The notes under the pieces are model-generated. The model was not told the origin of the DNA and made no database searches. It saw only the letters and a list, made by a program, of their open reading frames with translations. From Candidatus Omnitrophota bacterium (GTDB lineage Bacteria; Omnitrophota; Gorgyraeia; Aquiviventales; Aquiviventaceae), in contig JACPTX010000055.1 of the NCBI GenBank assembly GCA_016192545.1, forward strand, positions 1-42,921: a DNA stretch of 42,921 nt, in the 5' to 3' direction. Positions 20,592-22,678 of the stretch are shown piece after piece (within the stretch, counting starts at the first letter, position 1; each line of letters opens with the position of its first letter). The translations under genes and the position numbers were made by a program.

Positions 20592-20622
20592 GGGGTCAGA
20601 CCCCTCGCTGGGGTCAGACCCC
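20592..20622. repeat. Tandem GGGGTCAGACCCC palindromes after the ferredoxin gene
   Basis: Two identical 13-base palindromes (20592-20604 and 20610-20622) lie one base past the ferredoxin stop codon. They match the pair at the pckA 3' end. This is likely a REP-type element at the end of the nxr operon, where it could stabilise the transcript end or stop transcription. Confidence 0.7.
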
Positions 20623-20623
20623 G

Positions 20624-21034
20624 CTAGAGGTAGGCGCCGGGGCTCGGAGTGTGATTCAGATTGTCATCCAGCGCAAGTCGAATCGCCCCAACGTCGTTGA
20701 CGGTGCGGCACGCCTCGACGCACACGCCGCATCCATTACAGGCCGAGGCCATCACCAGCGGCCTGCCATCATCCAACATAATCGCCTCATCGCGAAGCGG
20801 ACAGCGCAGGTAACACGCTTGACAGGGGCTCGCACCCCAAGCCAAGCATCGCGTGACATCAATGACCGCAAGCCGTCGTCCGCCTACAGACGCTGTGGTC
20901 TGTGCTCCCGCGACGCCGCTCGGGGACCCCTCGGCGATGAGCTCCCTCACGCCAGCAACCATCTGACGCGGCAGCCATCTGAGGAAGGTCCGCCGGCTCA
21001 CCGCCGCGTGCTGCGTCTCGTCGAGGAGGGTCAT
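20624..21034 (-). CDS. Tat-signal 4Fe-4S ferredoxin-type protein
   Basis: This 136-residue protein has an N-terminal twin-arginine motif SRRTFLRWLPRQ and two Fe-S-type cysteine groups, RCLAWGASPCQACYLRC and ACNGCGVCVEAC. The layout resembles NapF/NapG-like or MauM-like ferredoxins. The RR motif suggests export with or beside the Nxr complex, but the following hydrophobic stretch is short, so it may stay in the cytoplasm. The ATG overlaps the upstream gene's stop (ATGA at 21031-21034). It is the last gene of the nxr operon and a candidate electron carrier or assembly factor for Nxr. Confidence 0.75.
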   Translation of the reverse strand: MTLLDETQHAAVSRRTFLRWLPRQMVAGVRELIAEGSPSGVAGAQTTASVGGRRLAVIDVTRCLAWGASPCQACYLRCPLRDEAIMLDDGRPLVMASACNGCGVCVEACRTVNDVGAIRLALDDNLNHTPSPGAYL

Positions 21035-21870
21035 GCCACGACCTCCACCCGCTGCCGCCGTGCCAGCGTCAGCAGCTCATCCTGGGTCCAGCGGTCTCGA
21101 CCGCTCACCGTTGTGGACAGCTCCCGGCGAGCAGCGGCATCCAACGATGCAAACGCCCGCTCCACTTCCTGACCACGGGCATCGTCGGTGAGAACCGCCT
21201 GCCAGCCCATGCGGCGCAGGCGGGCATGCACCCACAGATCCCACAGCACGCGGAAGCGCTCTCGGATGAGCTCGTGTTCAGGCTCGCACTCCCCGCCGAC
21301 CCCACGCCCTGTCGGAGCGCCATCGGCGCCGCCGCATTGCGGCGGGTCGCTTCCAGCGACCCCGGCAGGGCGTGGGGCGAACGCGGGATGCGGATCGTAC
21401 ACAAAGGCGGGATCAAGCATGTCGGCCACATGCATCAGCTCGTGTCGGAGGAAGGCGGTCAGCTTCCCACGGTCAAGGCAGCGAACGGCCTGCAACCCGA
21501 TCAAGAGGGTGGTCGAGACTTCCAGGGCCGGTCGCGCTTCCCCGGGCCGGCCGACGTACAGCTCCACCTGCTCATCCTTTCTATCCCAGACCCGCCGGAT
21601 GACGGCGAGCTCAAGCCGGCTCGACAGCCGAGGAAACTCCGAAAGCCGCTCAGCGAACAACTCGGACAATCTGAGCGCTTGAAAGTAGCGACGCGCCAAC
21701 TGTTGAAACGCGGCTTCTCGTTGCTGCGCATCCGGCAGCTCATACACGGCCTCGCGCGCTCGGTGGAAGGAGGAGACCGTCTGGTGGCTCCCCGCGGTGG
21801 TCAGCCGGTTCAGCTCCAGAAACACCGCCTCCTCGACAAACGCTGGGTCAAACCGAAGCTCAACAGCCAT
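21031..21870 (-). CDS. HExxH-motif protein of the nxr operon, unknown function
   Basis: This 279-residue soluble protein has no domain I can name. It contains LRHELMHVADMLDPAF, an HELMH zinc-metallopeptidase-type motif followed by an acidic residue. There is no signal peptide. The ATG at 21870 overlaps the chaperone gene by 11 bases; the long open frame upstream is a shadow. Residues after PHPAFAPRP are interrupted by about 26 Gly/Pro-rich residues encoded by a palindromic element (21300-21377). Operon position suggests a role in maturation, trimming or quality control of Nxr, which is inference only. Confidence 0.65.
   Translation of the reverse strand: MAVELRFDPAFVEEAVFLELNRLTTAGSHQTVSSFHRAREAVYELPDAQQREAAFQQLARRYFQALRLSELFAERLSEFPRLSSRLELAVIRRVWDRKDEQVELYVGRPGEARPALEVSTTLLIGLQAVRCLDRGKLTAFLRHELMHVADMLDPAFVYDPHPAFAPRPAGVAGSDPPQCGGADGAPTGRGVGGECEPEHELIRERFRVLWDLWVHARLRRMGWQAVLTDDARGQEVERAFASLDAAARRELSTTVSGRDRWTQDELLTLARRQRVEVVA
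21300..21377. repeat. 78-bp palindromic element inserted in frame in the HExxH gene
   Basis: Perfect 12-bp outer arms (CCCCACGCCCTG at 21300-21311 and its complement at 21366-21377) enclose a 7-bp hairpin (21330-21336 with 21338-21344) and another 7-bp hairpin GGGTCGC/GCGACCC (21344-21350 with 21356-21362). The 78 bases equal exactly 26 codons and keep the frame. Confidence 0.7.
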
Positions 21871-22639
21871 CACCCGGTTTCCCCCGCTGGAGGGCGCACG
21901 CGGCGCATCCCACCGCCTCCTGCTCCTTTGGAGAGCGCAACGGCAAGTCGCAGGAGCCCAACGGAACGCCCATCCGCGCGCACTCCTGCGAAAGCCACTC
22001 CAGCAAGAATGCTCCAACGGCGGCCAGCCCCTCCCCCTCGGCTGAGCGTGTGAGCCGAAGGGCAAACGCCGGTCCCCACCGCCCGAGATGGTCGGCCAGG
22101 AAGCGCCGGCCGGCTTCCTCGCATACCTGCGCCTGTTCAGCAGCCTCCTCATCAGCTGCGCAGGCCTGCTTGTACAGGAGGTAGTGCAAAAATTCACACT
22201 CTGTGCCAATGTGATCCACCCGCTCATGCGCCCTTGCGGCTACCTGAAGCCCGAAGGCGGTATAGAAGGCGGCGATATCACTCAATTCTTGCGGCTGCCG
22301 ATGGCTGTGCTCTTCGCCGTATTCGAGCTCATAGGGTGGTGCGGTACCCTGTACCGTGTGGCCAAATATCCGCTCGTGCTGGCGTGTCAGGTCGGGAAGT
22401 GTCGTCGTGTCCAGCATCTTCATCAGGCGACCAGCCAACTCCAACAGGCGGCCATCGTCTCCGAGTCGCCCAAGCACTTCGGGCAGCCGATGGTGTTCGC
22501 GTGCCACCAACCACTTCACCGTCTCCGCGCCTGGATGGCGCAGCAGCACCGAGAGCGCGTGATACACGGCGCTCCGAGCCAGCAGCTCCTCGACTGTTCG
22601 GGCCGCCTGGGAAAATGGGGACGTTTCTATTTTTCCCAT
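21860..22639 (-). CDS. TorD/DmsD/NarJ-type molybdoenzyme chaperone
   Basis: This protein of 259 residues is all-helical, with the family-type pattern PYELEYGE, HIGTECEFLHYLLYKQACA and FLADHLGRWGPAFALRL. Such chaperones bind the Tat signal of the catalytic subunit and hold it for Moco insertion, so NxrA is the obvious client. The ATG at 22639, with GGAGAGG ahead of it, lies in the loop of a 26-bp hairpin (22611-22678), and the first nine codons come from one hairpin arm. If this start is right, the N-terminal MGKIETSPF is repeat-derived. Extra cysteines near the C-terminus (SCDLP, GCAACALQ, final Cys) are unusual. Confidence 0.85.
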   Translation of the reverse strand: MGKIETSPFSQAARTVEELLARSAVYHALSVLLRHPGAETVKWLVAREHHRLPEVLGRLGDDGRLLELAGRLMKMLDTTTLPDLTRQHERIFGHTVQGTAPPYELEYGEEHSHRQPQELSDIAAFYTAFGLQVAARAHERVDHIGTECEFLHYLLYKQACAADEEAAEQAQVCEEAGRRFLADHLGRWGPAFALRLTRSAEGEGLAAVGAFLLEWLSQECARMGVPLGSCDLPLRSPKEQEAVGCAACALQRGKPGDGC

Positions 22640-22678
22640 CTTCTTCCTCTCCGGAAAAATAGAAACGTCCCCATTTTC
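22611..22678. repeat. 26-bp perfect inverted repeat between nxrB and the chaperone gene
   Basis: Arms 22611-22636 and 22653-22678 are perfect complements with the core GGGGACGTTTCTATTTTTCC. On the minus strand the 16-base loop (22637-22652) reads GGAGAGGAAGAAGATG, that is, a ribosome-binding site plus the chaperone start codon. The nxrB stop codon (22679-22681) touches the right arm. The core resembles REP elements that accompany REP-associated transposases in other bacteria. No such transposase is in this window. Confidence 0.85.

Follow-up and report, generated by a model that had tools for sequence, protein, structure and literature searches.

A 78-bp palindrome within an HExxH protein gene is one copy of a family of mobile, cloverleaf-folding DNA elements in Omnitrophota

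Although first recognized as a single in-frame palindrome, the 78-bp sequence at positions 21300-21377 of a 42,921-nucleotide stretch of Candidatus Omnitrophota DNA (assembly GCA_016192545.1, contig JACPTX010000055.1; hereafter the window) is one copy of a family of mobile elements that fold as four-way cloverleaves and that insert between overlapping genes, or in frame inside genes, without breaking them. Longer relatives of these elements encode a GIY-YIG nuclease of the Slx1-like type, which we infer to be the likely driver of their movement. We found no description of palindromic elements in Omnitrophota or of inverted-repeat GIY-YIG elements in the open-access literature, although subscription journals, preprints and ISfinder were outside this search.

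The observation made in the sequence-only reading holds, and its position and palindromic nature are right, but the anatomy is richer than described there. The outer arms (21300-21315 and 21362-21377) are 16 bp long, comprising 12 exact pairs, one T.G wobble and 3 more pairs, rather than 12 bp, and they enclose three hairpins rather than two, each with a 3-nt loop: hairpin 1 at 21317-21329 (5 bp, loop ATC), hairpin 2 at 21330-21344 (6 bp, loop ATT) and hairpin 3 at 21345-21361 (7 bp, loop TCC). The single-stranded DNA folds at -42 kcal/mol (z -7.6), with no shuffled sequence as stable, and the RNA of the coding strand at -64.4 kcal/mol (z -5.9). The host gene (21031-21870, minus strand) encodes a 279-residue HExxH protein without a Pfam match and lies in an operon with a NarJ-like chaperone, a NarH-like 4Fe-4S protein and another 4Fe-4S protein; it carries 27 extra residues APRPAGVAGSDPPQCGGADGAPTGRGV. 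Two other repeats were seen in the window. A 26-bp perfect inverted repeat, GAAAATGGGGACGTTTCTATTTTTCC, with a 16-nt loop, lies between the NarJ-like and NarH-like genes (22611-22678) and is REP-like but unrelated to the cloverleaf family, whereas two tandem copies of GGGGTCAGACCCC between moaA and the ferredoxin-like gene (20592-20624) represent a motif seen in other dispersed repeats and possibly another repeat family.

Comparison with homologous genes, the check set beforehand for an insertion, shows that the stretch is absent from relatives. Homologues in six genomes of the same family, five of which were aligned, match query residues 1-165 and about 192-275 with nothing between. At the DNA level, the empty sites in three of these relatives' genomes (G017, G008 and G020) read GCGTTTGGCGGCGAG where the coding strand of the window reads GCGTTCG[78 bp]TCGGCGGGGAG. 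The insertion is therefore of exactly 81 bp, that is, the 78-bp element plus a 3-bp target duplication, CGA on the plus strand (left copy 21297-21299, right copy 21378-21380), and it adds 27 residues in frame, not the 26 first proposed, right after HPAF and about 20 residues behind the HExxH motif. Although the intact reading frame would be compatible with a native loop that happens to be coded by a palindrome, this reading is all but excluded by the absence of the residues from homologues that align closely on both sides, by the 3-bp duplication and by a similar copy at an unrelated place in G020; no distant homologue with the same residues was found.

That copy in G020, found in a BLAST search that also gave partial matches elsewhere, is full-length (78 nt), 76% identical and has the same CGA..CGA flanks. 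A structure scan of the regions retrieved showed that many are cloverleaf palindromes, and the genome of the window holds at least 18, as counted from a pattern search and individual stretches. The arm TCCCACSMCCTGC occurs up to 56 times per genome in most genomes of the family, and almost never in other families of the class or as the reversed control. A scan of 84,980 species genomes for the two-arm pattern returned 46 contigs, of which 44 are from Candidatus Omnitrophota. A hit in Thiohalomonas (locus L139) has one hairpin and no duplication and was excluded, whereas a cloverleaf element with a TGA duplication in a MAG labelled Elusimicrobia (locus L149, 2915-2993) comes from the same groundwater sample series as Omnitrophota hits, so that it may reflect horizontal transfer or a binning error.

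In total, we collected 110 distinct elements, of which 91 have an identical 3-bp duplication (TCA 45, TGA 32, TAA 4, TTA 3 and others 7) and none has one of 2, 5 or 6 bp. Their base pairs are kept by compensatory changes: in the 107-nt subfamily, 98.5% of cells pair and 9 pairs are changed on both sides, compared with 0 of 500 shuffles and 0-2 in slid controls. Interior hairpins alone are more stable than shuffles in most elements (median z -3.6) although their sequences differ, so structure is kept rather than sequence. An apparent 5.8-kb element between two arms in locus L191 holds ordinary unlinked genes and was taken as chance. Tandem arrangements also occur: in G008 (locus L203, 1928-2207, contig C8) two cloverleaf elements lie within 280 bp at one ATGA junction, joined by a short spacer holding an extra GGTGGGATCATCCCACC palindrome, and in genome G000 (locus L104, contig C19 near 67913) a solo end-like remnant (GGCAGGTAGTGGGATGA) stands in front of a gene whose homologue in G008 is preceded by the double element.

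Most copies do not sit inside genes but in the ATGA stop/start overlaps of operon genes. Using a simple codon-model gene caller on sequences from which the element and one target copy were removed, we find that 58 of 104 copies lie exactly at a start codon, 45 of them also at the stop codon of an upstream gene, and that 11 are internal to genes. Of the 75 copies with TGA/TCA duplications, 50 are at junctions, 16 in genes and 9 intergenic, against 2.1, 66.1 and 6.8 expected from random TGA/TCA sites in the same stretches (Fisher 2e-57 against all sites, and 7e-21 even against intergenic sites only). All genomes are draft MAGs and the gene calls are approximate, and because copies are related by descent, these and the other P values are indicative; the preference itself could reflect insertion bias, selection or both. 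In the operon of the window, the junction between the HExxH and ferredoxin genes is an empty ATGA in G017 and a TGA overlap in G020, but carries a 152-bp element in G008, which also has an 81-bp element at the N-terminus of its HExxH homologue. A conserved host regulatory RNA, such as an attenuator or leader at operon junctions multiplied by duplication rather than transposition, could account for the strong RNA fold, the junction position and the compensatory changes. It is, however, very unlikely given the precise 3-bp duplications, the empty sites in relatives, the in-frame copies inside genes, the unrelated neighbouring genes and the absence of a matching family in Rfam.

The sequence of the junction copies shows how both genes can be kept. 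In ATGA the duplicated target is TGA; the left TGA stays as the upstream stop, and the element ends in A, so that this A plus the right TGA gives ATGA again, a start for the downstream gene. The old start codon now reads ATG ATC CCA CGC CCT GCC ... GTG GGA TGA, an open mini-ORF through the element that, for lengths of 2 mod 3, ends at the right TGA and overlaps the new start; as read from the sequence, stop, start and coupling are thus all re-made and the element becomes a tiny coupled cistron. Long copies are 2 mod 3 in 60 of 72 cases (p 3e-18), over some fifteen different lengths, and the mini-ORF is open in 46 of 48 such junction copies, against 22 of 48 for the antisense in the same phase (p 5e-8) and 26 and 28 for the other sense phases. 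Conservation of the peptide as a function of the mini-ORF was rejected, as pN/pS is about 1.0 in every frame; it is the open frame and not the peptide that is kept. Internal copies are instead mostly 0 mod 3 (9 of 11), as is the copy in the window, and 12 of 17 in-frame copies in or near genes (p 0.0019), the window's included, use the same codon phase, xTC CCA.

A candidate for the autonomous parent was found in genome G011, in which a 317-bp element (locus L197) with a TGA duplication at an ATGA site carries, in the same reading frame and in place of the middle hairpin, a complete GIY-YIG nuclease domain (PF01541, E 1.1e-12). Relatives in genomes G023, G010, G022, G009 and G049 have the same layout, and other Omnitrophota families have GIY-YIG ORFs with other arms (ACCCAGCCCC, ACCCCGCACCTT, ACCCCGTTAGACCC) and TGA duplications, again starting in the host's ATG and reading through the arm. 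A further arm family of the same architecture is represented by GIY-YIG ORFs in several Omnitrophota families (loci L276, L279, L280 and L281) that are flanked by a shared end, CCCCCACACCAAT/ATTGGTGTGGGGG. In a control with mismatched flanks, the best inverted-repeat scores had a median of 7 and a maximum of 13, whereas the ten closest homologues scored 15-22; many GIY-YIG genes in the class nevertheless have no flanking repeats, with 14 of 30 loci exceeding the 95% control. In G047, a genome from another family, a nuclease element lies next to mini-elements with the same ends, and further mini copies are dispersed. There (locus L259, 1501-1985, contig C91), a 55-bp mini-element, a 332-bp GIY-YIG element and a 90-bp mini-element form a tandem row joined by TGA and starting at an ATGA, and the stop of the first mini-ORF overlaps a GTG start of the nuclease ORF. 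The three genomes with most arms (G010, G022 and G023) all carry the full-length form (p 0.012), but the genome of the window, an 86% complete MAG, has no GIY-YIG relative at E<=1e-6, perhaps from incompleteness or loss.

Ten members of the nuclease family share invariant Y30, R40 and E76, among other residues, in keeping with the conserved Tyr, Arg and Glu of the GIY-YIG superfamily. Both sequence and predicted fold place the protein with UPF0213/Slx1, treated as the Slx1 branch and distinct from the UvrC/I-TevI homing lineage (PMC1564403); the best matches are Slx1-family structures, and I-TevI was matched only at E about 1.

ALTERNATIVES. DDE_Tnp_1 transposases (PF01609) were found in only 2 of 28 genomes, none of them the element-bearing G000, G003 or G008, and neither locus holds the arms. 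Inverted ends plus a 3-bp TNA duplication do resemble DDE transposition of the IS5/IS1031 type, in which case the palindromes would be MITEs of a conventional transposon and the GIY-YIG ORF a passenger. We consider this unlikely, as several arm families each pair with a GIY-YIG ORF in the same frame and position, and a DDE transposase would not explain the conserved inner hairpins. Even less likely is a REP/RAYT-type system in which a Y1 (HUH) transposase mobilizes the hairpins as single strands: hairpins suit HUH enzymes and Y1 transposases occur in 21 of the 28 genomes searched, but none was found in G000, G003, G015 or G017, which carry elements, and Y1/RAYT movement does not normally leave 3-bp target duplications.

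Taken together, the interpretation that we favour with fair confidence is that the palindrome is a non-autonomous copy of an Omnitrophota mobile element family. The analysis itself establishes the insertion with a 3-bp duplication (consensus TGA/TCA), the cloverleaf kept by compensatory change, the dispersal in many copies, the position of most copies in ATGA overlaps with stop and start re-made and an open frame between them, and the existence of full-length relatives that have the same kind of ends, duplication, site and frame but carry a nuclease ORF closest to Slx1/UPF0213. What we infer, no movement having been observed, is that this nuclease mobilizes both forms by recognizing and cutting the extruded four-way junction of the donor and/or by cutting at TGA in the target, that the 78-140 bp forms are deletion derivatives moved in trans, and that the open frame is kept because ribosomes must pass the very stable hairpin to reach the next gene. 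The mechanism is suggested by the activity of Slx1 on branched DNA and by the four-way junction that defines the element, although a 3-bp target duplication is not the classical product of GIY-YIG homing enzymes.

We regard it as somewhat more likely than not that this is a new class of mobile element, in which an Slx1-like GIY-YIG nuclease flanked by palindromic ends moves itself and a swarm of cloverleaf mini-elements by acting on the extruded four-way junction, and targets the ATGA overlap such that the insertion becomes a translationally coupled mini-cistron, or an in-frame domain, and leaves host operons working. What would be new is the anatomy, an inverted-repeat element encoding only a GIY-YIG nuclease, with frame-keeping mini-forms in ATGA overlaps; the mobilization mechanism remains unproven. 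If correct, this would be a mobile element whose only protein is a structure-specific nuclease, in a large uncultivated phylum in which a common transposase family, DDE_Tnp_1, is nearly missing from the genomes searched. It would show how a selfish palindrome can spread harmlessly through streamlined, operon-packed genomes, by rebuilding both stop and start codons and carrying an open frame that lets ribosomes pass. It could also explain some of the short GIY-YIG genes in such genomes and be a source of new protein loops and mini-genes, and the pairing of a cloverleaf substrate with a branched-DNA nuclease makes the idea amenable to direct biochemical testing.

The family is MITE-like in form and RPE-like in one of its two outcomes, but its candidate parent, target and mini-cistron strategy match no family that we know or found. 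The sequence-only interpretation, which likened the element to the Rickettsia palindromic elements (RPE), is partly supported: both are small, dispersed palindromic elements inserted in frame in unrelated genes (PMC10969869), but this captures only a minority of the copies described here, as most lie in ATGA overlaps rather than inside coding genes. They also have a fixed 3-bp TGA-type duplication, a conserved four-way cloverleaf of 78-140 bp against about 150 bp, ends of their own and nuclease-bearing long forms, and they belong to Omnitrophota and are not shown to be related to RPE; the comparison holds as an analogy, not as membership. Bacterial MITEs, such as Chunjie of Geobacter, which is inserted in an operon, are likewise short, non-autonomous and multicopy, with inverted ends and direct repeats and no transposase ORF; here, however, the inner hairpins are conserved by compensation, the mini-ORF is open, start and stop are re-created, and no DDE element with these ends was found, the candidate parent encoding a GIY-YIG nuclease instead of a transposase. 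GIY-YIG homing endonuclease genes of the I-TevI type and free-standing seg genes are also selfish elements encoding a GIY-YIG nuclease, but the nuclease described here is of the Slx1/UPF0213 branch and is flanked by inverted repeats with a 3-bp duplication at many unrelated sites, rather than homing to one allele. REP/REPIN-RAYT systems share dispersed hairpins with a trans-acting enzyme, but differ in enzyme class, target duplication and site choice. Finally, mitochondrial byps and double-hairpin elements are mobile hairpins tolerated inside genes, whereas the elements described here need no translational bypass, because they are inserted in frame or as a mini-cistron.
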